Below are positions 15,964-29,117 of a stretch of 64,000 nucleotides of DNA, piece after piece. Both the position numbers and the translations under genes were made by a program. Numbering within the stretch: position 1 is the first letter of the stretch; every line of letters begins with the position of its first letter. The notes below the pieces were generated by a model. That model saw only the letters and a list, made by a program, of their open reading frames with translations. It did not search any database and was not told where the DNA came from. The DNA comes from Sulfuriferula nivalis (lineage in GTDB: Bacteria; Pseudomonadota; Gammaproteobacteria; Burkholderiales; Sulfuriferulaceae). The stretch lies in NCBI RefSeq assembly GCF_009937995.1, contig NZ_AP021881.1:2852001-2916000 (forward strand), given 5' to 3'.

Positions 15964-17100
15964 TTATAACAATCCAGCACCTACATCTTCACCCGCCATT
16001 TGACGTTTGACGTTTTCTACGTCTTTACGAGCCAGTGCAAACGGGAACGAGAAAATATCGGTTGGACTAGAGTCACCATATGGACGGTTACAAGCCGAAA
16101 CTTCTTCGTCGTCTTTACCAGGGCAACCAGATGTTTGGAATGGCTTGCCTGAGTTAACCAATTCAGCCAATTCATCTTCAGCCATACCGAAATCAATTAC
16201 CTGACCATTTTCATCAAACAACATCTTGCTGAAATGACCACCAGCATAGTCGATGATGAAGCGTGCTAATTGCACACGACGCCATTGACCGCGATCACAT
16301 GCCGGCCAGTCTTCCATCATTGAGCCTTGTTCAGGGAAGAAAGCGAACATATGATTGTGACCACCCAGGTCTTTGATTTTTTGACAAACCTCCAATATTT
16401 CTTTTTCAGTTTCGCCCATACCGCAAATCAAGTGTGCGCCAAATTTTTCTGGACCGAAAACGTCAGCCGCCCATTCGATGGCTTGCCAGTATTTTTCAAA
16501 ACGGTGTGGACTATCAACTGTTTTACCACGAGTACGCTCAAAAATATCTGGTGTTACTGCATCCAATGCCACAGTAAAGATATCAGCGCCCATCTGCTTG
16601 AGGCGAATCAAATCTTTTTTTTCCATGGTGGTTGGATTAGATAGTATAGAAACTGGAATGTGCGCCAATTCCTTCATCCATTTATCCAGCAGGATGAAAG
16701 TATCGGAATCTGAATTTGGATGTGTAATCATAGAGATACACATGCGCTGGAACTGGCCTTTGTCATTGCCTTTTTTTACACGGTCAATAACATCGTCAAA
16801 ACGTGCAGTTGGCCATTCAACGCGGATAAAGTTGCGATCCGCGTAATCGCGAGTTTCTTCACGATGACGCGCCAGACCGCAATAGGTACAATTAGCACGG
16901 CAACCTTCAGGATAGGTAACCAACAAATTCAAGCAGTTCGTACATGCAGTACGATGCATATTACCCGGTACCAGACCTAGCGTAATCGCTGCAGCGGTAC
17001 TCATTTGGACGTATTCTGGCGAACGCATTTCAGGCGTTTTAACATGGTAATCTGGGCGGTAAAATTGTACAACTTGAGGTTGATCTAAGACTGCGCTCAT
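15964..17100 (-). CDS. lipS2: Radical SAM lipoate-assembly enzyme LipS2 (biotin-synthase-like)
   Basis: 378 residues. The radical SAM cluster motif CxxxCxxC is seen in GCRANCTYCGLARHR (around residue 72), preceded by the TACTNCLNLL segment. Further Cys residues near the C-terminus (GCPGKDDEEVSACNRPYG) could bind an auxiliary cluster serving as sulfur donor. In archaea and sulfur oxidisers LipS1 and LipS2 act as a pair that inserts the two sulfurs into octanoyl chains (established knowledge). In this operon the two radical SAM genes flank sLpl(AB) and lipT. Which of the two is S1 or S2 rests on my memory of gene order and is less sure than the pair itself. AAGGAGAG precedes the ATG; a terminator follows. 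Confidence 0.72.
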   Translation of the reverse strand: MSAVLDQPQVVQFYRPDYHVKTPEMRSPEYVQMSTAAAITLGLVPGNMHRTACTNCLNLLVTYPEGCRANCTYCGLARHREETRDYADRNFIRVEWPTARFDDVIDRVKKGNDKGQFQRMCISMITHPNSDSDTFILLDKWMKELAHIPVSILSNPTTMEKKDLIRLKQMGADIFTVALDAVTPDIFERTRGKTVDSPHRFEKYWQAIEWAADVFGPEKFGAHLICGMGETEKEILEVCQKIKDLGGHNHMFAFFPEQGSMMEDWPACDRGQWRRVQLARFIIDYAGGHFSKMLFDENGQVIDFGMAEDELAELVNSGKPFQTSGCPGKDDEEVSACNRPYGDSSPTDIFSFPFALARKDVENVKRQMAGEDVGAGLL

Positions 17101-17132: not shown

Positions 17133-18197
17133 TTATGATACAAAATAATCTGGGAAGGCTATCCAGCTTTTACGGTGCAAGCCATCTGTTTGTGCTGCTT
17201 CGGTCAGCCATTGCTGGTCTAACCATTTACGCCGTGCCACAGCACGGCTTACTGCTATTTCAAATTGATCACGAACATCTTCTTCAAAATCTTCAAGAGC
17301 TCCCGCATCCTGTTCTCGCAATAGCCCAACTGCGGCTTGTCCTGCGCGCTCGCCAGAGATAACAGCAGCCGCGATACCAGCCCCCGTAATTGGATGAGTT
17401 AAACCAGCAGCATCGCCTACAAACAAAATATTACCTATGACCAAATGCTCACGCAATCCACCCACTGGAATAGCTCCACCAGTACGGTATGTAATTTCCT
17501 CACCAACCAGACCCTGTGCTACAAGTTGGCTATGCAACTCATCCAGCGGCTTTTTCATGTCTGATGTAAAGCGTTTATCTAATCCCAACCCCAAGTTAGC
17601 CCAGTTACCCTTTGGAAACAACCATGCATAACCACCGGGATAATCAGCTGATAGCCAAATATCAGTATCAACATACTCCCGCTTTAATGGGACGGTATAT
17701 TGGCGGGTGGTTACAACTTCCATTTCTGGCAAGCACAAAGATTGAGCCACAGGAGAATGCGGACCATCCGCAGCCACTAACAGCCGATATTCGATGTCAA
17801 CTTCACCATCTTCAGTATGAATCGTAGCAATATTATTAGTCACATCAAGGCTAACTAAGCGACTATTGAGCCATAAATCCGCACCTTGATCGAGGGCTGC
17901 CGTAGCGATGGCCTGATCAAATGCCGCGCGATTTATCATTAAACCCGGAAATTCGGTTTCAGCAACTGCACCCGATGGCAAAAAACTCTTCATCCCTTTG
18001 ATGTGCTGATATAACACGCCATCCGCTTTTGCATATTTACCCATAGGTAGCGGTATAAACTCTGCACATTGGACAGGGACACCAATTTCATGACGGCGAT
18101 CTACACCCATTACACTCAATCCACCTTGTGCTGCTGCCAGTGCAGCTGCCGCACCGGCAGGGCCCAATCCAATTATTAATACATCTATTTGCTTCAT
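17133..18197 (-). CDS. lipT: LipT, FAD-binding geranylgeranyl-reductase-like oxidoreductase of lipoate assembly
   Basis: 354 residues. N-terminal FAD motif LIIGLGPAGAAAALAAAQGG, an EFIPLPMG segment after VPVQCAEF as in the geranylgeranyl-reductase family, AADGPHSPVA (DG motif) and FVGDAAGLTHPITGAGIAAA (GD motif). In sulfur-oxidiser sHdr loci a protein of this family is called LipT and is thought to supply electrons to the lipoate synthases. That role is from context, not visible in the sequence. The start overlaps the sLpl(AB) stop by ATGA, and lipS2 follows after 32 bases. A chlorophyll or archaeal-lipid reductase is unlikely given this context. Confidence 0.75.
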   Translation of the reverse strand: MKQIDVLIIGLGPAGAAAALAAAQGGLSVMGVDRRHEIGVPVQCAEFIPLPMGKYAKADGVLYQHIKGMKSFLPSGAVAETEFPGLMINRAAFDQAIATAALDQGADLWLNSRLVSLDVTNNIATIHTEDGEVDIEYRLLVAADGPHSPVAQSLCLPEMEVVTTRQYTVPLKREYVDTDIWLSADYPGGYAWLFPKGNWANLGLGLDKRFTSDMKKPLDELHSQLVAQGLVGEEITYRTGGAIPVGGLREHLVIGNILFVGDAAGLTHPITGAGIAAAVISGERAGQAAVGLLREQDAGALEDFEEDVRDQFEIAVSRAVARRKWLDQQWLTEAAQTDGLHRKSWIAFPDYFVS

Positions 18198-19273
18198 GCA
18201 ACGACCTCGGCAGGCTGTATTGCCATTTTTATCAAGCCTAAAATATTTTCAGGTGTTAATGTAAGCATATCGACATGCCGCTTTTTAAAAAAATCGAGTA
18301 CGATAACATCAACATTATCAACATGACTATCCCGTAGCACGGCTTCCAGATCCACTAATGTACGGCGCGGACTAATAAAAACGTCACCACTGAACCAAAC
18401 TTGCTTGATGCGCTGTTTCACCTGGTCATACGCAATATTTACTTGTAACAAGCCAGCCGCAAATTTTTGCGATGCAGTAAGTGTTGGTCTATCGCTTTCA
18501 GGCAGATCTATCATCCCAATCCACTCAGGATGATCAATCTCTTTAATCGCTTCGCCGTACAATTCCTGTTCAATCGCGTTTAATTCGCCCGAAACAAAAT
18601 CCACATTAAATTCATTTTCCACAGCTTGCTGCAATGCTGCTATAACAATTGCACGCTCAGGTACGTAGCCAAGCAATGTCTCTAAATTAGTCACACGTTC
18701 TCGCGCAGACAAAATTGCTTTATCGGATAACTTCTCAGCGGGAATATTTAATATTCGCAACATTTTTTCAACATCAAATGAAATTAGCAAGGTACCTTGA
18801 TACATTAATGCATCACCATCGAATGCCCCACCAGTACCCGAAATTTTACGACCATCGACCTCAATATCGTTACGCGGTCTAAATTTTGCATCTACCCCTA
18901 GTGAGGATATACCTTTCGCAACTGCTGTACAGATACGACTTGAAATTGCCGTCATGTCGGCAGTTCCCAAAGTTTGCTTATCTAAATACAACTCCCATCC
19001 TATTTGCGTGGTATCAAAATATATAGCTCCACCACCCGTAATACGACGCTGAATTTCAATATCATGGTCAGCGCAATATTCCAGATTTAGTTCTTGAGCA
19101 GCACTCTGATGAAATCCCAGTAAAGCACATGGCTCAAATCCAAGAAAACGCAATGTATTGGGAGCCTGATTCGTCTGCCTGGCCTCTAACAATGCTCTGT
19201 TTAGTGCAATGTTGTTAGCTGCTGGCTGTGTACCGGTATCCAACAAACGCCATGTCTGTTTTGCATCAGACAT
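18194..19273 (-). CDS. slpl(AB): sLpl(AB)-type lipoate:protein ligase
   Basis: 359 residues. Lipoate-octanoate ligase fold: LRFLGFEPCALLGFHQ, the RRITGGGAIYFD lipoyl-AMP-binding motif, IGWELYLDK, and RPRNDIEVDGRKISGTGG with the catalytic Lys. A C-terminal accessory domain is fused (about residues 255-359), as in single-chain LplA-type ligases. In sHdr loci this subgroup, sLpl(AB), attaches the octanoyl or lipoyl group specifically to LbpA. ATG 19273 overlaps the lipS1 stop as TAATG; an ATG at 19285 is an in-frame alternative. No lipA/lipB pair is visible in the window, so this looks like a dedicated, separate route. Confidence 0.8.
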   Translation of the reverse strand: MSDAKQTWRLLDTGTQPAANNIALNRALLEARQTNQAPNTLRFLGFEPCALLGFHQSAAQELNLEYCADHDIEIQRRITGGGAIYFDTTQIGWELYLDKQTLGTADMTAISSRICTAVAKGISSLGVDAKFRPRNDIEVDGRKISGTGGAFDGDALMYQGTLLISFDVEKMLRILNIPAEKLSDKAILSARERVTNLETLLGYVPERAIVIAALQQAVENEFNVDFVSGELNAIEQELYGEAIKEIDHPEWIGMIDLPESDRPTLTASQKFAAGLLQVNIAYDQVKQRIKQVWFSGDVFISPRRTLVDLEAVLRDSHVDNVDVIVLDFFKKRHVDMLTLTPENILGLIKMAIQPAEVVA

Positions 19274-20448
19274 TAGCCGCAACATCCACCTACTGATTCT
19301 GGCTGGCCTGCTGTAACCACTTTAATACCCGACAGACTTGAGCTAGCAAAGCTTGGTCGTTTTGTACGTTCGTGCTCAATTACCTTTTGTATATCAACTT
19401 GCAGTCCCGCATCTTCCGTTTCTATCGCCATGACTTCGTCCCCTATGGCAATAGAACAGCATGCAGGCGTAACACGCACATCACGTTCTAAACGCACAGC
19501 CAATTCGACCATACCATCAGATGGATGCGCCAAGCCATTTAAACCAGCCATTACAGCATAGCTATCAATCTCAACTTTAACTTTACCAGGTGGTCGTGCA
19601 CAACCTAATAACAAGGGCACGTCAGGTAAAGCGGCGCGTGCGTCCATAAAGAATCGCCCCACTTCCTTACTGTCAGGTGTAATAAATGGACGACTCTCAG
19701 GCGCATAAAAAGGCATCACTACTACCAATACGACAGCCTGTGGTTTATGCCGCTGGATAATTTCAAGTGCGTTCCACTCACCTAACATATGCCCATAATG
19801 CAGACCAAGCACAATATGTGGTACAACTTTTAATTTAGTCGAGACTAAATATTCCAGCGTTTTTTCAAAATCATCTACTGTACGGCGCAAATGATAAACT
19901 TGGGTAATTGTATCTTGAGAACCAATCACGTCCATCATTGCAGCGTCAATACCACTATCTTCCATGCGTCGCGCAATATCCATATCAACTAGCGCGGTAT
20001 GCATTGCTATCTTAAAATCTGGAAAAGTATCTTTGATTCGACGTATGGTTGAATAATAATCATCATATTCAACTTCATTGCGATGATTAGAACCACCAGT
20101 CAATAACATACCCTGAGCGCCACTGTTAATTTGCTCATTAACGACACGCCATAAATCCTCGGGGGTACGAGCACCTATCATAGGTTCTAATATTTTAGCC
20201 TTACAATGATCACATTGCAGTTTGCAATCACCACCCGTAATAGATACAGCTGGCCATGCACTTTTTCCACAACCCGTGATTTCTGAGCTGGCAAATGCTT
20301 TAAAAGTTGGCGTGTAGAAATTAACGCGACCTACGCGCTCTCCTTGCAAACTATTAAATTTAGTTTGCATCTCATGCACCAACGCAGCATCTAACTCAAT
20401 GCCATCTAATGGTTCTACACGCCCGACGATATCTAGCCAATCACTCAT
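19273..20448 (-). CDS. lipS1: Radical SAM lipoate-assembly enzyme LipS1
   Basis: 391 residues. Radical SAM CxxxCxxC in GGDCKLQCDHCKAKI (around residue 79). GCGKSAWPAVSITGG precedes the motif and ITGGSNHRNEVEYDDYY-type strands follow in the barrel. Downstream Cys residues (LLGCARPPGKVK, VTPACCSIAIG) and a C-terminal GGCCG tail may ligate a second Fe-S cluster that gives up sulfur. It acts with LipS2 in lipoyl formation on LbpA (family knowledge). It follows lbpA after a 96-base gap containing two hairpins, and has AGGTGAT as ribosome binding site. The S1/S2 naming is from gene order, as for LipS2. Confidence 0.72.
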   Translation of the reverse strand: MSDWLDIVGRVEPLDGIELDAALVHEMQTKFNSLQGERVGRVNFYTPTFKAFASSEITGCGKSAWPAVSITGGDCKLQCDHCKAKILEPMIGARTPEDLWRVVNEQINSGAQGMLLTGGSNHRNEVEYDDYYSTIRRIKDTFPDFKIAMHTALVDMDIARRMEDSGIDAAMMDVIGSQDTITQVYHLRRTVDDFEKTLEYLVSTKLKVVPHIVLGLHYGHMLGEWNALEIIQRHKPQAVVLVVVMPFYAPESRPFITPDSKEVGRFFMDARAALPDVPLLLGCARPPGKVKVEIDSYAVMAGLNGLAHPSDGMVELAVRLERDVRVTPACCSIAIGDEVMAIETEDAGLQVDIQKVIEHERTKRPSFASSSLSGIKVVTAGQPESVGGCCG

Positions 20449-20544: not shown

Positions 20545-20982
20545 TTAGCAACCGCCGAAGCCGTCTGTGTTCATTTTTGTTTCAAATCCAGTTGCAACAG
20601 CACCACCAGTTACTAAAGCACCTGATTGACCATCCCAGTCTGTAGGCTTCATTTTAACCAACCAACCGCTACCATATGGATCTGCGTTAATCGTACCTGG
20701 CTTAGCAGCTACATCTGGGTTGATAGCCAAGATTTCACCAGTGACTGGTGCTTTAACTGGGCCTACCCACTTACCTGATTCAACTGTAGAAACAGATTTG
20801 TTTTGTTCGATTTCTTTACCCGCTTTTTTAGGGGTGTAAGATACGATTTCACCAGCCAATGAGCATGCATAAGCTGTCATACCAATGGTCAAAGTGCCAT
20901 CAGCTTCACGACGAGCCCATACGTTGTTATCCACGTTGTAGTACAAATCATCTGGAAGGTTACAACCACGTACTGTTGCCAT
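20545..20982 (-). CDS. lbpA: Lipoate-binding protein LbpA (GcvH-like carrier)
   Basis: 145 residues. GcvH-like lipoyl domain with the modified Lys expected in STVESGKWVGPVKAPV; the N-terminal WARREADGTLTIGMT segment and the GSGWLVKMKP strand are typical of the H-protein fold. In sHdr-type sulfur oxidisers LbpA carries a lipoyl arm that is thought to hand sulfur intermediates to and from the sHdr complex, in the cytoplasm. Conserved-looking Cys residues sit near both ends (RGCNLPDD, FGGC). GAGGAG precedes the ATG. It is the second lipoyl carrier of the operon and lies immediately upstream of the lipoate assembly genes. Confidence 0.9.
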   Translation of the reverse strand: MATVRGCNLPDDLYYNVDNNVWARREADGTLTIGMTAYACSLAGEIVSYTPKKAGKEIEQNKSVSTVESGKWVGPVKAPVTGEILAINPDVAAKPGTINADPYGSGWLVKMKPTDWDGQSGALVTGGAVATGFETKMNTDGFGGC

Positions 20983-21078: not shown

Positions 21079-21474
21079 TCAAAAAAACATCGATTTGTCA
21101 CAAGCCAATATTAAATCCGCCATTTTACTGGCATTAGCAATTTCATCGACTTCCTCAATTATATCCGATTCAGTCAATTTATATCCAGGCATTGCTGGTT
21201 TGCACAGGTATAATTTTACACCAGCGGCCTTGGCATCCCGTATGAATTCGATGATGGTTTTACCACCCTCCATTGCTGCAAAACTTTCTGCAACACCTTT
21301 TTGCGCCAACTTGACTGCTTCCATAGTAAAAAAAATACTAACTTCAGCCTCCATGGAAGCCAATATTGCCCCTATGTAGAATGGAGTCGCACAACGGTGT
21401 GCCGTTGACGGCCCGCTTGTCATCACGATAACGACTGACTTCTCTTCGTTATCTAAATAATGATGATCTGCCAT
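21079..21474 (-). CDS. DsrE-family cytoplasmic sulfurtransferase (DsrE3-like)
   Basis: 131 residues. DsrE/F-like fold: VVIVMTSGPSTAHRCATPF, then a long helix and the strand YLCKPAMPGYKL. The Cys in YLCKPAM is at the usual sulfur-carrying position, and the Cys in HRCATPF is a candidate second one. Proteins of this class relay persulfide sulfur between rhodanese, TusA and the oxidising complex. Its start overlaps the stop of the upstream LbpA-like gene (TAATG), so the two are made together. Placement between two LbpA genes suggests a job at the carrier step; subclass DsrE3 is inferred by eye. Confidence 0.8.
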   Translation of the reverse strand: MADHHYLDNEEKSVVIVMTSGPSTAHRCATPFYIGAILASMEAEVSIFFTMEAVKLAQKGVAESFAAMEGGKTIIEFIRDAKAAGVKLYLCKPAMPGYKLTESDIIEEVDEIANASKMADLILACDKSMFF

Positions 21475-21920
21475 TAGCGCGCACCTCTTTCACAGTGTAT
21501 GTCTTCTCTTCGTGTACGCTCACAATAACCCACCTGTGCCGCATCCCCAGTTACCATAACAGACAACGCCTCATCCACACTGCCAGACGGACGCACGCGC
21601 GCTATCCACGCCTCATACGGTTCTATATTAAGCAGGTTAGGATCATCTAAAACATCGTGATTAGCATCTTCGATAACACAATCAAAGACATTAGGTACAG
21701 GACCAGCCCACTTTCCACTTTCTATTGTGGCCACTGGCTTACCTATAGGACGCAATGTTCCGGGACGACGAACTCGTACATGTAAAATTTTACCCGCAAC
21801 AGTTTGAGAAATATCTGTCATACCAATGGTTAAAGTACCGTCTTCTTCTCGGCGTGCCCATATTTGGTATTGATCATCGTAATATAACTCAGGGCGAAAT
21901 TCGCAACCGTTACATTCCAT
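21474..21920 (-). CDS. Second LbpA-like lipoyl carrier protein
   Basis: 148 residues. Clearly related to the lbpA product: QIWARREEDGTLTIGMTD, then ATIESGKWAGPVPN with the lipoylatable Lys, then NIEPYEAWIARVRP. It differs in a Cys-rich start (ECNGCEF, a CxxC) and an Arg/Cys-rich tail (GYCERTRREDIHCERGAR). Because the target Lys and its ESGKW.GPV context are kept, lipoylation is likely. It follows shdrB2 after a hairpin-bearing gap and is coupled to the DsrE3-like gene. Whether it replaces or complements LbpA is unknown. Confidence 0.85.
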   Translation of the reverse strand: MECNGCEFRPELYYDDQYQIWARREEDGTLTIGMTDISQTVAGKILHVRVRRPGTLRPIGKPVATIESGKWAGPVPNVFDCVIEDANHDVLDDPNLLNIEPYEAWIARVRPSGSVDEALSVMVTGDAAQVGYCERTRREDIHCERGAR

Positions 21921-22028: not shown

Positions 22029-22940
22029 TTAAACCACACCTTTTGCATGCAAGAAGTCTAATGAATCGCTTACATTCTCATGAACACCTAACTTGCGAGC
22101 AGACAAACCCATTGCCAAGCCAAGCAGTTGTGTGAAATATAAGATTTTTACATTAGTTTTGATACCAAACTCTGTTTCTGCACGAACTTGATGCATTTCC
22201 AAACCAGAATGGCATGTTGGACATTCTGTAGCAATAACTTCTGCACCTGCATCTTCAGCAGCTTGAATAATGTTCAAAACAAGTTGAGTAGAAGTATCGG
22301 CATCAGACAGTGTATGAGCACCACCACAACAGGCTGTCTTAAGTGGGAAATCCACATTCACAGCACCTGCTGCACCAAGCAAATCATCCATGAAATGCGG
22401 CTTGTAGCTTGATTCACTACCAGGGCCTTGATCCTTTTCAGGGAAAATTTGACGTGGACGTGTATACATACATCCGTAATAATTCGCAACCTTAATACCG
22501 TTCAGGCTCTTTGAAATTTTTTGCTTAATGCCATCAGCACCCAAATCTTCCATTAACCATTCCAGCAAATGCACTGTGCGCACATCACCTTTATAAACTG
22601 GATCTTCAGATTTTTTAGCCAAACCTTGCAAAGTATCCAAGGATTCTGAAGATGTAGCCAATTCATACTCAGCTTTTTTCAGATTGTGGTAGCAACCGTT
22701 ACAAGGCGCCATAACTGTGTCATAACCCATTTGCTCACTTGCAATAGCCATAACACGTGCTGACATGTAAGTTTGCAACATAGGATGGATGTTTTTAACT
22801 TCCATCGCGCCACAACAATTCCAGTCATGTACGGTTTCCATTTCCATACCAAGACTTTTAACAAGTGCACGAGTCGAACGATCATAAGGACCGCCAGAAC
22901 CTTCTAAGGCACAACCTGGATAATATGCAACCTTAGCCAT
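22029..22940 (-). CDS. shdrB2: sHdrB2, CCG-domain subunit of sulfur-oxidising heterodisulfide-reductase-like complex
   Basis: 303 residues. Two complete CCG cysteine motifs: YYPGCALEG ... DWNCCGAME ... APCNGCYHN, and YYGCMYTRP ... TACCGGAHT ... ECPTCHSGL. These ligate the unusual non-cubane [4Fe-4S] clusters of HdrB. The complex acts in the cytoplasm in oxidation of sulfane sulfur to sulfite (established for sHdr in Hyphomicrobium and related bacteria). The start overlaps the shdrC2 stop by 8 bases (ATGGCTAA). Both cysteine sets are intact here, unlike sHdrB1. Confidence 0.92.
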   Translation of the reverse strand: MAKVAYYPGCALEGSGGPYDRSTRALVKSLGMEMETVHDWNCCGAMEVKNIHPMLQTYMSARVMAIASEQMGYDTVMAPCNGCYHNLKKAEYELATSSESLDTLQGLAKKSEDPVYKGDVRTVHLLEWLMEDLGADGIKQKISKSLNGIKVANYYGCMYTRPRQIFPEKDQGPGSESSYKPHFMDDLLGAAGAVNVDFPLKTACCGGAHTLSDADTSTQLVLNIIQAAEDAGAEVIATECPTCHSGLEMHQVRAETEFGIKTNVKILYFTQLLGLAMGLSARKLGVHENVSDSLDFLHAKGVV

Positions 22941-23703
22941 GCGCTAACTCCTTTTGCTCTTTAACATATTGACTTAACACTTCGCCTGTATGACCCCATG
23001 ATTTCGTTTTTGGTTTGAAGAACATAGAGTAACCCATATGCAATGAATGCATGATAGGTGTACGTGTAATGAATTTCCATATATTACCGTTGCGCAATTC
23101 AGTCCACTTATTCATACGAGCAACAAAAATCCCTAACCAGCCATTTAACGCCATTTCTTTAATGTCTTGATTGGTGTTTTTGTAGAAGTTCGTCATCACT
23201 TCTGAATCTTCAATACGTCCACGCGCTATACACTGGCGAGCAAATTCTTCATCGAAAATAGTCGAATTTGATTTTTCACCAAATCCTTCAGCCTCAATCC
23301 AATGCGCCAAAGCTTTCATCACACCTTCAGGGCGAACATCTTTTGGGCAGATATTCGTGCACTTGTTGCACGAAACACATTGCCAAATAATATCTTTATC
23401 CTTCAGGATTTCATCTTTTAAACCTAAACGAGTAAGGTATATCCAATAACGCGGATTAAAGTCCGTATTTTGAGCATACATTGTGCATGAATTTGTGCAT
23501 GACCCGCACTGCCAGCAACGGTGTACATTTTCAGCACCTGCGTACTCTTTGATATGCGCCTCAAAACCATCGTCATATTCTTTCAAAGTACGCGGTAGGA
23601 TCATGGTATTCCAGTGACCTGAAACGTCGACCCCATCCACTACTAGGGTATCACTAGTGATTAACCGGCTAGGGTCAATCAGCGTTTTTTCATGAATTGC
23701 CAT
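22933..23703 (-). CDS. shdrC2: sHdrC2, iron-sulfur subunit of the sHdr complex
   Basis: 256 residues. Two [4Fe-4S] motifs: CWQCGSCTNSC and CVSCNKCTNICP, in a soluble helical protein typical of HdrC. It moves electrons between the FAD subunit and the CCG subunit. AGGAGA precedes the ATG, and the gene is coupled to shdrB2. It belongs to the second C/B pair of the operon, downstream of the Hyp gene. Confidence 0.92.
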   Translation of the reverse strand: MAIHEKTLIDPSRLITSDTLVVDGVDVSGHWNTMILPRTLKEYDDGFEAHIKEYAGAENVHRCWQCGSCTNSCTMYAQNTDFNPRYWIYLTRLGLKDEILKDKDIIWQCVSCNKCTNICPKDVRPEGVMKALAHWIEAEGFGEKSNSTIFDEEFARQCIARGRIEDSEVMTNFYKNTNQDIKEMALNGWLGIFVARMNKWTELRNGNIWKFITRTPIMHSLHMGYSMFFKPKTKSWGHTGEVLSQYVKEQKELAHG

Positions 23704-23763: not shown

Positions 23764-24639
23764 CTAATCAGTTAATGTTTCACGCCGCACTCTTGACAAT
23801 CCAACCTTCGCAGGTGCATCTATACCCAAAAACTTTTTAATATGATCACTAGGTCCACTGGCCCTGCCAAAATCAGCACTTAACATACCTTCAGCCATAG
23901 AACGGAAGTATTCGGCATACGCTTGTGCCTGAACCAAATCCACCCAGAAATGCACATCTTTATAAAGCCCTTGTTCAGCAAGTTGCGTCGCTAACCATGT
24001 TCTAGCACCTTCATACATTTCTGGACTGTTGCCTAACGGCACATCCGGCATTGTATCGTTACCACGAATAAATTCGCGCAAAGCACCGCTAACTGTATTT
24101 TGATCCCATACCCATCGAGTCATCAGTGGATACTTTATAGGATTATTAAAATGCAGCAGTTCAGCACCAAAATCGAATGCCGCACGCTTATTTTTAGCAG
24201 CCAGCTTTCTGGTCTCTTTGTCTGCACTATCATCGCACACGACTACATCAGAGAACTGATCAAGCCTATCAAGCAAACTTGCTTTACCGTATAACAAATT
24301 CCTTACCCGCTCACGCGCACTATCTATCCCTAACGTTTCTATTGATGGATAGACCCGACGACGAGCCGAAAAAACCGTTTCCAATAATGCTTCTACACTT
24401 TCCATGCTCAATTCTGTTAGCTTTTCTTCAGCTAGCAAATTTGAAAACAACTCATGCTTTGCTTGTAGACTTGCTAAAAACGCATCAACACCAGCATCCT
24501 CTTCCGCATTTTTTTGCAATGCGGAAAATTTCTGCTGAAATTGGCGGGCATCAAGCGGAACTGAAAGCTCAGCCGGAATAATTAAATCCGGCTCACTCTC
24601 AGCTGCTATCTGATTAGGCTGCTTTTTGAACCAAAGCAT
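23764..24639 (-). CDS. Conserved sHdr-operon protein of unknown function (Hyp)
   Basis: 291 residues, mostly helical and soluble; no cysteine motif and no membrane segment. It starts LWFKKQPNQIAAESEPD, has a Glu/Leu-rich N-terminal half, then MTRWVWDQNTVSGAL and WVDLVQAQAYAEYFRSMAEG. In sHdr operons an uncharacterised gene (hyp) is regularly found between shdrA and shdrC2, and this gene has exactly that position. It overlaps the 3' end of shdrA by 26 bases, so co-translation is tight. A role in assembly or as an extra subunit is plausible but unproven. Confidence 0.88.
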   Translation of the reverse strand: MLWFKKQPNQIAAESEPDLIIPAELSVPLDARQFQQKFSALQKNAEEDAGVDAFLASLQAKHELFSNLLAEEKLTELSMESVEALLETVFSARRRVYPSIETLGIDSARERVRNLLYGKASLLDRLDQFSDVVVCDDSADKETRKLAAKNKRAAFDFGAELLHFNNPIKYPLMTRWVWDQNTVSGALREFIRGNDTMPDVPLGNSPEMYEGARTWLATQLAEQGLYKDVHFWVDLVQAQAYAEYFRSMAEGMLSADFGRASGPSDHIKKFLGIDAPAKVGLSRVRRETLTD

Positions 24640-25663
24640 TCATATCACCCACAGCGCGCATAGCCATTGCCAAGCCATGAGAGATACTAGTATCGATATC
24701 TTCTGGACCCAATGCTGCACCACCGACGTAAACACCACGGCGAGTACTACTAAAACTGCTGGTGTACTGCTCGCCCTTGTCTACGAATCCGTGCTTTTCC
24801 AAACCTATGCCAAACACTTTAGCAAGTTCTGGATTTTCTTCGTTTGGATCCATACCGATAGCATGCACAACGATATCCATAGGAATAACGATAGGGCGTT
24901 TAACAAGAGTATCTTCACCCTTAACTAATAGACGACCATCAGCTGATTTGGTTACTTCTGCGATACGGGCTTTAACAAATTTAGTCTTAAACTCTTCCTG
25001 TGATTTCCAGTAGAACTTATCTTCATACAGACCAAATGTGCGAATATCCATGTAATAAATGAATACTTCAGTCGTAGGCGAAATTTCTTTAATTTCCATT
25101 GCCAAATTTGTAGATACAGTACAGCAAATCTTTGAGCACCATTCACGACCAATTTGACGATCACGAGAACCTACACACAATAGAATTGCAACACGCTCAG
25201 GCACACGACCATTCGATGGACAAGCAATTTTACCTGTACCAACCATTTGCTCCATCTGAGTAGTTGTCAACACATCTTCATGCGTACCAAAACCCCACTC
25301 AGGCTTATTGATAGAATCAAAATGTGTAAATCCTGTACCCAGAATAATGCTACCAACATTTGCAGTTTGGCCATTAGAAAGTGTCACTGTGAAATTACCA
25401 GCCTCACCCTCAACCTTAACAACTTTTGTTGATTTGTGTATGGTCACGTTAGGACTATCTTCAACGCGCTTTACCATACGACCAATCGCATCTTTAGCCC
25501 ATTCACCAGAAGGAACCAATTTCGCATAACCAGATAGAATTGGCGCACCGCCTAAGACAGATTCCTTTTCTACCAAGATTACTTTCTTACCAATAGATGC
25601 CACGCCAGCTGCTGCGGACAATCCTGTTGGGCCTGCGCCCACTACTAAAACGGTATCAGACAT
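24614..25663 (-). CDS. shdrA: sHdrA, FAD-binding subunit of the sHdr complex
   Basis: 349 residues, much shorter than methanogen HdrA and without ferredoxin inserts, as expected for the sulfur-oxidising type. FAD-binding VLVVGAGPTGLSAAAG at the N-terminus, the cluster-binding Cys segment LLCVGSRDRQIGREWCSKICC in the middle, and YVGGAALGPEDIDTSI near the C-terminus, which closes the flavin site. In sHdr the flavin is thought to bifurcate or confurcate electrons between carrier and acceptor. One base separates it from the shdrB1 stop. This is the signature gene of the locus. Confidence 0.93.
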   Translation of the reverse strand: MSDTVLVVGAGPTGLSAAAGVASIGKKVILVEKESVLGGAPILSGYAKLVPSGEWAKDAIGRMVKRVEDSPNVTIHKSTKVVKVEGEAGNFTVTLSNGQTANVGSIILGTGFTHFDSINKPEWGFGTHEDVLTTTQMEQMVGTGKIACPSNGRVPERVAILLCVGSRDRQIGREWCSKICCTVSTNLAMEIKEISPTTEVFIYYMDIRTFGLYEDKFYWKSQEEFKTKFVKARIAEVTKSADGRLLVKGEDTLVKRPIVIPMDIVVHAIGMDPNEENPELAKVFGIGLEKHGFVDKGEQYTSSFSSTRRGVYVGGAALGPEDIDTSISHGLAMAMRAVGDMNALVQKAA

Positions 25664-25664
25664 T

Positions 25665-27005
25665 TTATTGACGGCCTCCTAATGCCAGCTCTGGGTTATA
25701 TAAATACTCAATGTTTCCTGCTTCTACTTCTTTTAAGTAAGCCTCAAATGTTTTCTTGGCTTCAGTCCAAGAAACACCCATTTTCTCAACCAACTCTTCA
25801 CATGGTGATGCATGCCATTGCAATTGTACAATTTTAAATGGGTCTGCTCCGCATGCCAAAGCAGCGAATTGTATATCAGCCATAATAGGCACTGCAAAAT
25901 TGTTATCGTGAGCTTTACCAATCCACTGGTTCTTGTCCATGGTAGTAATACAACCAGTATCAATACCCAACATTACGTCAGCGTTTGCTTCCTCTCTAAC
26001 AACACGAATTTTACGATCCATCGTGAATGAACGTGTAAATTCACGTTCAGAAATAATGTGACGGAAACCAAAACCACAACAGTCATACCAAGTTGAATAG
26101 TCAATTAACTGCGCACCAAGCGCTAAAGCAACAGAACTACCAACTGCAGTACGATTACCACCCAAAACATCAGGATCATAAATTGCATCTTCATGAACCA
26201 TTTTGTAATAGTGACAAGCCGCATGCATAGTAACGCGTATGTTTGAGACATCTACAGTTTGCATCTCTGAAGCAATACGGTTGCGAACAACGTGTACCCA
26301 TTCTGAGTAGTGAATGATCTCTTCTGGTATAACCAACTTACCATCAACCAAACGACCCAACTTTCCTAATATTTTAGTAACGCGCTCACGCAACTCAGCA
26401 GATTCTACTAAATATTTACGAATTTCTTTATAGTTACCAAAAGAAGTACCACAGTGAACTAACGGGAAAAAGTGACCAGCTTCAAATCCATGCTGTTTAC
26501 CAGAAATATACGCTTGGTGGAAATTACGCATAAACACTGCAGCTAAAGACTCTACGTTACCGATACCTGATCCATGGTAATTCCATGCTGTACATGAAGT
26601 TTGATCTGTCTCATCCAAGTAGTCTTTACCTGGTACATAACCAAAGTTATTCATGAACCACAAGATTGATGTCGGGTAACCTGGAATATTGCCACACTGA
26701 CCACATGATTTGTGATGCCACAATTGTGTCGTTGGGACTTTTTTTGCCCAACCAAACAAAGTGTTGACTTCAACTGGCTTGTGATCATCAGTGATACGGT
26801 GAACGATAATTTGACCGTCCTTTTCGAGCTCCCACATATGATCGCGGATATCATCCATACGCTCACCGAGATCGACAGTACGCTTATCTACGTGTTTACG
26901 AACCCACTCAGTTGCCGTAGCTGCTTCTGCACCTGATAGATTTGTTTGCTGGAAGAACGACCCGTGACCAGCAATTCCTTCATTTTCATTGCCTATATTA
27001 CTCAT
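25665..27005 (-). CDS. shdrB1: sHdrB1, divergent CCG-type subunit of the sHdr complex
   Basis: 446 residues. The C-terminal half keeps a CCG site (HAACHYYK ... YDCCGFGF ... DTGCITTM), but the last CxxC is reduced to a single Cys. The N-terminal half has SCGQCGNIPGYP, QTSCTAWN and VHCGTSFG and no CCG. Cluster binding therefore differs from sHdrB2; this asymmetry fits what is known of the B1/B2 pair. The protein is longer than B2 because of an N-terminal extension and a C-terminal EAGNIEYLYNPE tail. AGGAGATATGCC stands before the ATG. It partners shdrC1. Confidence 0.9.
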   Translation of the reverse strand: MSNIGNENEGIAGHGSFFQQTNLSGAEAATATEWVRKHVDKRTVDLGERMDDIRDHMWELEKDGQIIVHRITDDHKPVEVNTLFGWAKKVPTTQLWHHKSCGQCGNIPGYPTSILWFMNNFGYVPGKDYLDETDQTSCTAWNYHGSGIGNVESLAAVFMRNFHQAYISGKQHGFEAGHFFPLVHCGTSFGNYKEIRKYLVESAELRERVTKILGKLGRLVDGKLVIPEEIIHYSEWVHVVRNRIASEMQTVDVSNIRVTMHAACHYYKMVHEDAIYDPDVLGGNRTAVGSSVALALGAQLIDYSTWYDCCGFGFRHIISEREFTRSFTMDRKIRVVREEANADVMLGIDTGCITTMDKNQWIGKAHDNNFAVPIMADIQFAALACGADPFKIVQLQWHASPCEELVEKMGVSWTEAKKTFEAYLKEVEAGNIEYLYNPELALGGRQ

Positions 27006-27043: not shown

Positions 27044-27727
27044 TCAGTCTTCTTCCTGCTCTTCCAACCATTCTTCATACTCTTCGCGCTTCTCGTCAAT
27101 GAAATCTTCGATAACGTCAAATAAGTTTTCATCCATTGCTTCTAACGAACTTAGAACACCTGTCATTTCCCAAATTGTGTACATCTCTACCGATGTCTTT
27201 AATGAAACTTCCCAAGCTGTATCAGTTGTTTGCAATGTACGAACTGGAATTGCCTTACGTAAAGTTTTCAGATCGCCTTCAACTTTTTGTATGTTAGGAC
27301 CCCAGTCTGGAAAGTGATCTGGCTGGATCATGTCTGGAGACAACTGGTTACCTGTTGTAATCAGTTTCAACATTACACGACCAAACGGGCGAAGCACATC
27401 TTTAGCCGACTGCATACCATGCTTAATCGACACTTCACGCATAATCATCACCAATCCACCTGGTGAGTTCTTAAATGGACAACGAGCAGCACATGTCATG
27501 CATTGAGCGCACGCCCAAATTTTCTCCTGCATTGCATCGTAAATTTGCTCCACATTTTCTGTCCACAACAACTGGACAATTTCACGTGGACTGTAGTCAT
27601 AAAATTGCGCTGATGGACATGTTGCAGTGCAAATACCGCAATTCAAACATCCATTCAATTCATGGTCATAACGAAAATCGCTACGAATATCATCATAAAT
27701 TTCGCGCATTTCAGCGTAAGTTGCCAT
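27044..27727 (-). CDS. shdrC1: sHdrC1, iron-sulfur subunit, first gene of the shdr cluster
   Basis: 227 residues. Two [4Fe-4S] motifs GCLNCGICTATCP and CAQCMTCAARCPF; a very acidic C-terminus (EEYEEWLEEQEED). HdrC-type electron transfer subunit that pairs with sHdrB1. GAGAGGTG precedes the ATG. A good sigma70-type promoter lies about 50 bases upstream of the start codon, so the shdr genes can be transcribed independently of rhd-tusA-dsrE2. Confidence 0.92.
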   Translation of the reverse strand: MATYAEMREIYDDIRSDFRYDHELNGCLNCGICTATCPSAQFYDYSPREIVQLLWTENVEQIYDAMQEKIWACAQCMTCAARCPFKNSPGGLVMIMREVSIKHGMQSAKDVLRPFGRVMLKLITTGNQLSPDMIQPDHFPDWGPNIQKVEGDLKTLRKAIPVRTLQTTDTAWEVSLKTSVEMYTIWEMTGVLSSLEAMDENLFDVIEDFIDEKREEYEEWLEEQEED

Positions 27728-27955: not shown

Positions 27956-28465
27956 TTACAAGTACAAGCAAATATCTGAATCACCTGCAAATGAGAAGAA
28001 TGAAGCCGCGCCAACATAATCTACGCCATCAATGAACTCACTGTGATCAAAGCCAAAAAGCTCTACAGTCATTTGACATGCCAAGAATTTCACATCGCAC
28101 TCATGGCACATGGAACGTAGATCTTCTACTGTAGCAACACCATTGTTAGAAATCGACTTCTTCATCAGTACAGTTGCAACAGCTTCATAACCTGGCACGA
28201 TTGCCTGAATCGCATTTGGAACATTCCAATTAATCCCACGGAACCACTTAGGCCCGAACGGCATCTTCATAGGCATACCAGGATTTCCCAGCGGGCTAAC
28301 TCTTAGGAAAGAAAGATCCTTGCGCACTAACTGCAACCCGTAGAATGTAAAGAAAATCTCTACAGAATAATCCAAAGCCGCAGCTGTTGAAGCCAAGATA
28401 AATGGCGGGTACGCCCAATCCAGCGTGCCTTTTGTTGCAATGATTGCAAGTTTCTTTTGTTCCAT
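27956..28465 (-). CDS. dsrE2: DsrE2-family sulfurtransferase
   Basis: 169 residues. DsrE2-type protein: KLAIIATKGTLDWAYPPF, EIFFTFYGLQL, and the conserved Cys in LACQMTVELFGF that carries the persulfide. No clear membrane segment is seen, so it looks like the soluble form. It completes the rhd-tusA-dsrE2 module that in sulfur oxidisers passes sulfur to sHdr or Dsr (established knowledge). GAGGGA precedes the ATG. It lies 228 bases upstream of shdrC1, and the shdr promoter is in that gap. Confidence 0.88.
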   Translation of the reverse strand: MEQKKLAIIATKGTLDWAYPPFILASTAAALDYSVEIFFTFYGLQLVRKDLSFLRVSPLGNPGMPMKMPFGPKWFRGINWNVPNAIQAIVPGYEAVATVLMKKSISNNGVATVEDLRSMCHECDVKFLACQMTVELFGFDHSEFIDGVDYVGAASFFSFAGDSDICLYL

Positions 28466-28530: not shown

Positions 28531-28758
28531 TTATTTCTTCTTCATAAAGAAAGTAAATTCAGCACCAGCTTGAGCAGATGAAAGCAATTCATTACCTGTT
28601 TGCTTAGCAAATGCTTCGAAATCTTTAATAGCGCCTGGATCTGTTGCAACAATTTTCAACACTTGACCAGTAGTCATATCAGCCAAGCTTTTCTTGCAAC
28701 GCAAGATTGGCAATGGGCAGTTTAAACCTTTTGCATCTAATTCTTTATCGAAATTCAT
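28531..28758 (-). CDS. tusA: Sulfur carrier protein TusA
   Basis: 75 residues, full length. The hallmark CPxP motif is seen in LNCPLPILRCKKSL, with the first Cys being the persulfide carrier. It accepts sulfur from rhodanese and delivers it to DsrE proteins and sHdr in the cytoplasm. AAGGAGATG stands before the start. It is central in the rhd-tusA-dsrE2 trio. Confidence 0.95.
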   Translation of the reverse strand: MNFDKELDAKGLNCPLPILRCKKSLADMTTGQVLKIVATDPGAIKDFEAFAKQTGNELLSSAQAGAEFTFFMKKK

Positions 28759-28796: not shown

Positions 28797-29117
28797 CTAT
28801 ATCGCAGATAAAGGGCGGCCTGAACGTATCCAACCCATTATCCCTCCCTGCAAATTATACACCTCAACCAATCCCTTTGAAGCCGCGAAGGCTGAAGCTT
28901 GGGCTGAGCGTCCTCCAGACTGACAATAAAACACCACTGCTTTATCGGCCGGCAAATCTTGTGCTTTTAATGGGAGCAAATGCAAGGGCAAATGTATTGC
29001 ACCTTCTATTCCTCCGCGTGAAACCTCAGCATCTGTACGCACATCAATTAACATGCATCCTGTCTTGGCTATTAAATCATCCAAACCTTGCACATCAATC
29101 TCTTTAAATCCGTACAT
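28797..29117 (-). CDS. rhd: Single-domain rhodanese of the rhd-tusA-dsrE2 module
   Basis: 106 residues. Rhodanese fold with LIDVRTDAEVSRGGIEGAIHLP (CH2A-type) and the active-site loop CQSGGRSAQAS. It mobilises sulfane sulfur from low-molecular-weight persulfides and loads TusA. No signal peptide, so it is cytoplasmic. It starts 74 bases after soeC in the same direction. Confidence 0.92.
   Translation of the reverse strand: MYGFKEIDVQGLDDLIAKTGCMLIDVRTDAEVSRGGIEGAIHLPLHLLPLKAQDLPADKAVVFYCQSGGRSAQASAFAASKGLVEVYNLQGGIMGWIRSGRPLSAI

Follow-up and report, generated by a model that had tools for sequence, protein, structure and literature searches.

The two overlapping genes at positions 21,079 to 21,920 of this Sulfuriferula nivalis stretch are very probably the known LbpA1-DsrE3B part of the group I sHdr-LbpA sulfur-oxidation cluster, an assignment of identity and context made from sequence, for which a mechanism is proposed below. 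The window, meaning the whole stretch of 64,000 nucleotides that was analysed, is a clear case of a published, poorly understood arrangement. The system itself is already known, and the additions made here are a cysteine signature (Cys81) of LbpA1, distribution data and a third carrier clade, LbpA3. With these data, the question of why two lipoyl carriers are retained in sHdr bacteria can be put as specific tests, namely of Cys81, of the co-occurrence of LbpA1 with DsrE3B, and of LbpA2 in genomes that have dsrA without sHdr.

Both genes lie on the minus strand, lbpA1 at 21474-21920 (148 aa) and dsrE3B at 21079-21474 (131 aa). The lbpA1 stop and the dsrE3B start read TAATG with one base (A) in common, and an AGAGG stretch is located about 10 bases 5' of the dsrE3B start, within the 3' end of lbpA1. 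The pair is flanked by shdrB2 (22029-22940) and lbpA2 (20545-20982). The overlap and the position between shdrB2 and the canonical lbpA, both reported in the first-pass annotation, thus agree with the sequence and with the ORF coordinates. The complete minus-strand order is a rhodanese-like sulfurtransferase gene (28797-29117, Pfam search), a tusA-like sulfur carrier gene (28531-28758, with NCPLPIL), dsrE2 (27956-28465, above the NCBIfam cut-off), shdrC1 (27044-27727), shdrB1 (25665-27005), shdrA (24614-25663), a hypothetical gene termed hyp (23764-24639), shdrC2 (22933-23703), shdrB2, lbpA1, dsrE3B, lbpA2, lipS2 (19273-20448, a radical SAM lipoate synthase subunit), slplA (18194-19285, lipoate-protein ligase-like), lipT (17133-18197, an FAD-dependent oxidoreductase) and lipS1 (15964-17100, radical SAM). 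The five shdr genes were recognised as ORFs with counterparts in homologous loci (shdrB1 by a homologue search) and hyp as an ORF, while slplA and lipT came from family searches and lipS1 and lipS2 from their position. The hdr, lip and tusA gene names follow the published cluster, and CPxP is the motif of TusA.

Family searches against Pfam and NCBIfam covered eight proteins of the cluster. No Pfam or NCBIfam match was obtained at E 0.001 for the hyp protein, a homologue of which is present in most HdrB1 loci having the rest of the cluster (best 80 of at least 566 matches). Scans of the window for promoters did not rise above shuffled sequence, and those for terminators stayed within about one standard deviation. 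A search of the source genome for dsrA gave nothing near the cut-off (best match 50 bits vs 393). Among the matches listed, the closest named HdrB1 match (99%) belongs to a Sulfuriferula MAG (L062), and an hdr cluster in Sulfuriferula strains is already in print (PMC6397845).

The LbpA1 protein, which starts with MECNGC, matched Pfam GCV_H with 97.6 bits (E 6e-28) and carries its lipoyl lysine as K70 in ESGKW. Its structure model (pLDDT 95) was closest in the PDB to 3a7l, the E. coli H-protein. The fold and the lipoyl lysine are therefore common to LbpA1 and the glycine cleavage H-protein GcvH, but the scores of LbpA1 fall short of the NCBIfam GcvH cut-offs (53.1 vs 115.85 bits and 83.2 vs 117 bits), which rules out a plain GcvH. 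Over the whole source genome three GCV_H matches were found, namely LbpA1, LbpA2 and one protein outside the cluster that scores higher than LbpA1 and is taken as the genome's own GcvH. This GcvH lacks N- and C-terminal cysteines, whereas LbpA1 has both; PMC6067878 describes GcvH in general as being without them. In the alignment, a cysteine is found near each terminus of every LbpA1 (Cys6 and Cys143, each in 65/65 rows), and the lipoyl lysine is kept in all 154 rows of LbpA1, LbpA2 and LbpA3. The shdr cluster also comes with its own lipoate ligase and with LipS1/S2, the latter putative and assigned by position.

The phylogeny of LbpA paralogues that the first-pass annotation had called for placed LbpA1 and LbpA2 in split clades. 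Support was 99/96 for LbpA1 proper, 97/99 for LbpA1 plus LbpA3, 100/99 for LbpA3 and a moderate 91/79 for the LbpA2 rows. The window LbpA1 falls within the LbpA1 clade and separate from LbpA2, the type names having been transferred according to operon position and published usage. The tree was rooted at the midpoint after removal of rows more than 90% alike, and GcvH and two pair proteins formed long branches in it. Each carrier in the loci was typed after the reference, out of a small set, that gave it the highest phmmer score, and the types were then checked in this one tree.

The product of the second gene belongs to the DsrE family (Pfam, 65.4 bits), so the pair described at first pass as an LbpA-like carrier with a lipoyl lysine and a DsrE-family protein stands. 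Its model (pLDDT 90) has the DsrE fold, with 3mc3 as the best PDB match, a protein called a DsrE3A in PMC4175335. DsrE3B was defined in 2014 as the DsrE3 linked to lipoamide-binding proteins, with Atc_2345 as prototype (PMC4175335), and the window gene is indeed directly linked to lipoamide-binding protein genes; like Atc_2345, its product is encoded beside lipoyl carriers. DsrE3A proteins have a Cys-X7-Cys motif, whereas the window DsrE3B is without it and has the invariant Cys28 and Cys91 instead (67/67 DsrE3B rows), a separation made on sequences other than that of Atc_2345. Cys91 is probably the persulfide-carrying cysteine and may occupy the DsrE active-site position. A plain pattern search of the class loci did not pick up the Cys91 motif in L192, L193 and L199, nor the RCATPF motif in L202. 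Two more DsrE homologues of the window's genome (G000; L155/L175 and L156/L176), with 37% and 33% identity to DsrE3B, are situated away from the cluster.

The same arrangement has been described in another genus. According to PMC6382920, the order hdrC1B1A-hyp-hdrC2B2-lbpA1-dsrE-lbpA2 occurs in all hdr-bearing Thioalkalivibrio genomes studied there, and both Thioalkalivibrio carriers were lipoylated in vitro by the cluster's own ligase, the LbpA1 orthologue as seen by mass spectrometry (PMC6067878). Gene order, both carrier types, the dedicated ligase and nearby lip genes are thus as in the window (PMC6382920, PMC6067878). A difference lies at the junction, since in several Thioalkalivibrio loci, such as L084, L098 and L110, the first listed dsrE start comes after the lbpA1 stop, while the window genes overlap as TAATG. 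As order, lipoylation and DsrE3B linkage are all in print, the published scheme already has room for a second LbpA, and the first-pass view that it departed from the usual single-LbpA scheme finds no support. Single-LbpA clusters, published for Hyphomicrobium, share sHdr, an LbpA2-type carrier and lip genes with the window, and the Hyphomicrobium LbpA, which is of the LbpA2 type, was reported to be essential for sulfur oxidation (PMC6067878). In the stretches fetched for five further single-LbpA clusters (L165-L169), no LbpA1 and no DsrE3B-level match was found, the DsrE proteins there reaching 53-72 bits to DsrE3B.

Conservation of the arrangement was examined in several samples, which overlap in part; G000 belongs to both the order and the class samples. 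Named loci anchored on the window HdrB1 (best 80 of at least 566 matches) contained hdrB2, lbpA1, dsrE3B and lbpA2 together in 58 of 80 cases, much more often than chance would give. Among the other 22, 17 had none of the four, three stop less than 170 bases past hdrB2, L128 has shdrB2 and lbpA2 without lbpA1 and dsrE3B, and L134 has hdrB2 only, with no LbpA or dsrE3B in 8.2 kb downstream. The four genes also stood together in all 15 same-order loci fetched around LbpA1 matches (among the matches listed) and in all 20 LbpA1 genomes of the class sample, G000 included. The phylum sample (398 genomes per search) gave seven genomes with shdrC1. The trio was present in G000 and G300, and the stretches fetched from the other five (L165-L169) showed a single LbpA2-type carrier, with a DsrE of more distant relationship lying upstream of shdrC1. 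When the class of G300 was searched, just one genome came up.

LbpA1 and DsrE3B were together or both absent in the sHdr genomes examined, and LbpA1 without sHdr was seen in none of the genomes examined. The idea that carrier and DsrE belong together is borne out in this respect. The same-order sample comprised 300 genomes, 45 of which (G000 included) had an LbpA-type carrier among the matches listed. All 20 with LbpA1 had DsrE3B (180 bits or more) and shdrB2, and eight had dsrA over the cut-off. The 25 with an LbpA2-like carrier and no LbpA1, for which the carrier had to match at E 3e-18 or below, gave one DsrE3B-level match (G170, 177 bits) and five shdrB2, again among the matches listed; none of these five LbpA1-less shdrB2 genomes had dsrA over the cut-off. 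In the class sample, 32 of 369 genomes had a match, 20 of them to LbpA1, 10 to LbpA2-type carriers only and two to LbpA3-type carriers only. These two (G990, 75% complete, and G849, in which shdrB2 is cut by a contig end) have no LbpA1 and stand outside the counts. The search for DsrE3B in this sample covered some 1.5 kb around the carrier; G939 and G965, which are among the 10 genomes with LbpA2-type carriers only, gave no locus.

A strict dependence of DsrE3B on LbpA1 is contradicted by three genomes in which DsrE3B stands beside LbpA2 and neither LbpA1 nor shdrB2 was found (L177, L213 and L214, from G170, G699 and G923, which are 85, 86 and 96% complete). As these genomes keep DsrE3B with LbpA2, DsrE3B is neither an obligate partner of LbpA1 nor tied to sHdr alone. 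L177, with the order dsrE2-dsrE3B-lbpA2-lipS2, resembles what would be left of a cluster after the loss of shdr and lbpA1.

Over the 58 loci the lbpA1/dsrE3B junction was TRATG in 19 and of the ATGA type in 14; in 21 the stop was followed by the first start at a distance of up to 80 bases, and four had none of these. Start and stop thus overlap in 33 of 58 loci only, and the overlap was rejected as a conserved coupling signal. Its likeliest meaning is that both genes are expressed together in matched amounts, with physical hand-over possible. Gene linkage cannot separate these two, nor can it prove joint function.

The cysteine pattern distinguishes the two carriers at one position above all. 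In the 65 LbpA1 rows, Cys3 is present in 53, Cys6 in 65, Cys81 in 64, Cys133 in 47 and Cys143 in 65. In LbpA2 (75 rows) a cysteine is aligned with Cys6 in 74 rows and with Cys143 in all 75, whereas no row has one at the positions of Cys3, Cys81 or Cys133. Cys81, which lies 11 residues past the lipoyl lysine, is therefore found in 64/65 LbpA1 vs 0/75 LbpA2 rows; the position is Gly in 73 of the 75 LbpA2 and Cys in two of 14 LbpA3. Peculiar to LbpA2 is a cysteine at the LbpA1 Gln39 position (55/75 rows). These counts were made after rows with identical last 110 residues had been removed (75 to 65 for LbpA1, 84 to 75 for LbpA2, 76 to 67 for DsrE3B), and close relatives are over-represented in them because similarity to the window's HdrB1 or LbpA1 was the basis on which most loci behind the LbpA1 rows were chosen. 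Cys81 was also present in 20/20 LbpA1 of the class sample, of which G000 and probably its relatives are common to the first set. The sole LbpA1 row without it is the divergent LbpA1 of G300 (L164), so Cys81 is not needed in every LbpA1.

As to the cysteines noted at first pass, the CNGC near the start and the tail cysteine are present, but they do not mark the second carrier, because the inner N-terminal cysteine and the tail cysteine occur in LbpA2 as well and the terminal cysteines are hence not distinctive of LbpA1. Cao et al. 2018 reported no conserved cysteine difference between the two carriers (PMC6067878). Since Cys81 is found in LbpA1 and not in LbpA2, such a difference does exist in the present lineages, contrary to that statement, whose data set covers taxa outside the present rows.

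In the proposed mechanism, cytoplasmic sulfane sulfur would be passed as persulfide among rhodanese, TusA, DsrE2 and DsrE3B and then be offered to the sHdr complex, which would oxidise it to sulfite. The swinging lipoyl arms of LbpA1 and LbpA2 would move from one sHdr site to another with sulfur bound to them, with electrons or with both, as in the model of Cao et al. 2018. Their lipoyl group would be made by the dedicated ligase together with LipS1/S2 of the cluster, by analogy with orthologues for which this has been shown elsewhere. DsrE3B may serve the sulfur pool that feeds the carriers, via TusA or directly.

These two routes lead to different readings of the gene pair. DsrE3B homologues are reportedly homotrimers that donate sulfur to TusA, a finding attributed to Tanabe et al. 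in 2024, so TusA and not LbpA1 may be the immediate partner of the window DsrE3B. That DsrE3B works with TusA only, and lies between the carriers since sulfur-trafficking genes share one operon, is a credible reading, if one that falls somewhat short of an even chance. It is consistent with the make-up of the cluster, which opens with rhodanese, tusA-like and dsrE2 genes, and an archaeal DsrE3A-TusA transfer and complex have been demonstrated (PMC4175335). It leaves unaccounted for, however, that a DsrE3B-level match accompanies LbpA1 in 20/20 genomes of the order vs 1/25 without LbpA1, among the matches listed. This co-presence and co-absence would suit a direct hand-over, in which LbpA1 would receive sulfur from the Cys91 persulfide of DsrE3B, either on its reduced lipoyl arm or on Cys81/Cys143, and would then dock to sHdr. 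Adjacency, the overlap in 33/58 loci and Cys81, which LbpA1 has close to its lipoyl lysine and LbpA2 lacks, point in the same direction, as does a DsrE gene adjoining a lipoyl-type carrier outside sHdr clusters (L170-L172, L174). Nevertheless, DsrE3B also occurs with LbpA2 alone, TusA is the reported acceptor of DsrE3B sulfur, and the linkage might reflect co-expression only; we consider a direct hand-over plausible, though less likely than not.

The occurrence of two carriers may have another cause. Cao et al. 2018, who described the two carrier types and called the reason for two unexplained (PMC6067878), suggested that LbpA1 might have no distinct chemistry and be a duplicate that is retained because it raises the dosage or partners LbpA2 structurally. 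One ligase lipoylates both carriers, and the lack of a conserved cysteine difference in that report would agree with a duplicate, but the split clades, the distribution of Cys81 between the two types and the differing gene distribution make this improbable. That the extra LbpA1 cysteines bind metal or form a structural disulfide and do not carry sulfur is very unlikely, for although an N-terminal CxxC (Cys3/Cys6) occurs in 53/65 LbpA1, 12/65 are without Cys3 and 18/65 without Cys133, and the invariant Cys6 and Cys143 are common to LbpA2.

For the known LbpA1-DsrE3B part of the sHdr-LbpA cluster, gene distribution suggests that LbpA1 (Cys81) is an sHdr-dedicated carrier and LbpA2 (145 aa, with N- and C-terminal cysteines) a more general one. 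LbpA2 without sHdr was met in 30 genomes, 27 of which had dsrA. In the order, all 20 LbpA2 genomes without shdrB2 had dsrA, 18 over the cut-off and two as fragments, among the matches listed. None of the 10 LbpA2-only genomes of the class had shdrB2, and seven had dsrA (five over the cut-off and two fragments); the three without dsrA are 72, 72 and 81% complete, and two of the ten have DsrE3B beside LbpA2 (L213 and L214). LbpA2 may thus have another use in sHdr-less genomes. Furthermore, sHdr and rDsr are not mutually exclusive, because dsrA was found in 8/20 LbpA1 genomes of the order. We tentatively propose, as a minority expectation, split roles in which LbpA1, partnered by DsrE3B and with Cys81 next to its lipoyl arm, works for sHdr, and LbpA2 is general and also serves sHdr-less reverse-Dsr oxidisers. 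If so, lipoyl carriers would be part of both cytoplasmic sulfur-oxidation pathways, and the two-LbpA question would become testable. A link between LbpA and rDsr was not found in the searched literature, which was mostly non-subscription, and the word Dsr is absent from PMC10332631. Besides, LbpA2-type carriers with lip genes and/or DsrE2 and no shdrB2 match were observed in L025-L028, L030, L032, L033, L178, L207-L209 and L212.

LbpA3 is a third LbpA clade that groups with LbpA1, to which it has 45-49% identity. It was found in at least 12 of the 300 order genomes (at least 13 places, G100 included) and, by score band, in 17 of the 369 class genomes, 10 of which were examined; the window's genome gave no match. 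Among the matches listed it also occurs on three A. ferrooxidans plasmid records, in a plasmid search that gave enterobacterial and other matches as well, annotated gcvH or unannotated. By a script count, a C-terminal C-x-R-C motif is present in 24/24 LbpA3 loci. In 20 of the 24, a small membrane protein precedes LbpA3 and a thioredoxin-domain membrane protein follows it (L035-L046, L181, L216, L218-L223), the former with a weak COX1 match below the cut-off. In L034, L215, L217 and L224 a hemerythrin-like gene lies before LbpA3. Overall, the LbpA3 stretches hold a Crp/Fnr-like gene in 13/24 and a hemerythrin-like gene in 11/24, one of them weak (21 bits). These neighbours hint that, apart from sulfur oxidation, an LbpA relative may have a part in redox or nitric-oxide stress. 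Nothing relevant on a lipoyl carrier with hemerythrin was found in the searched literature, and 'lipoate-binding' occurs in PMC10086054 and PMC11294248 in the reference lists only. Viral contigs gave three pattern matches, none of them a relative.

Several further loci are of note. In L170 (8122-9097), L171, L172 (G360, G356 and G441, respectively) and L174 (7988-8925; G264), a DsrE-like gene adjoins a distant LbpA-like carrier; the L170 and L174 carriers keep the lysine and are without the N- and C-terminal cysteines. shdrB2 was not matched in G360 and G264, and dsrA was not over the cut-off in G360, G356 and G441, while G264 has one. The L174 pair is located downstream of genes that resemble, by eye, fdh, selA and selB. 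An HdrB1-like gene without other shdr genes in the stretch was seen in L071, L072, L126, L132, L139 (which ends just after the gene) and L182. Another lies near LbpA3 on an A. ferrooxidans plasmid (L034, 12358-13698), and in G256 such a gene shares its contig with dsrA, the two being some 5 kb apart.
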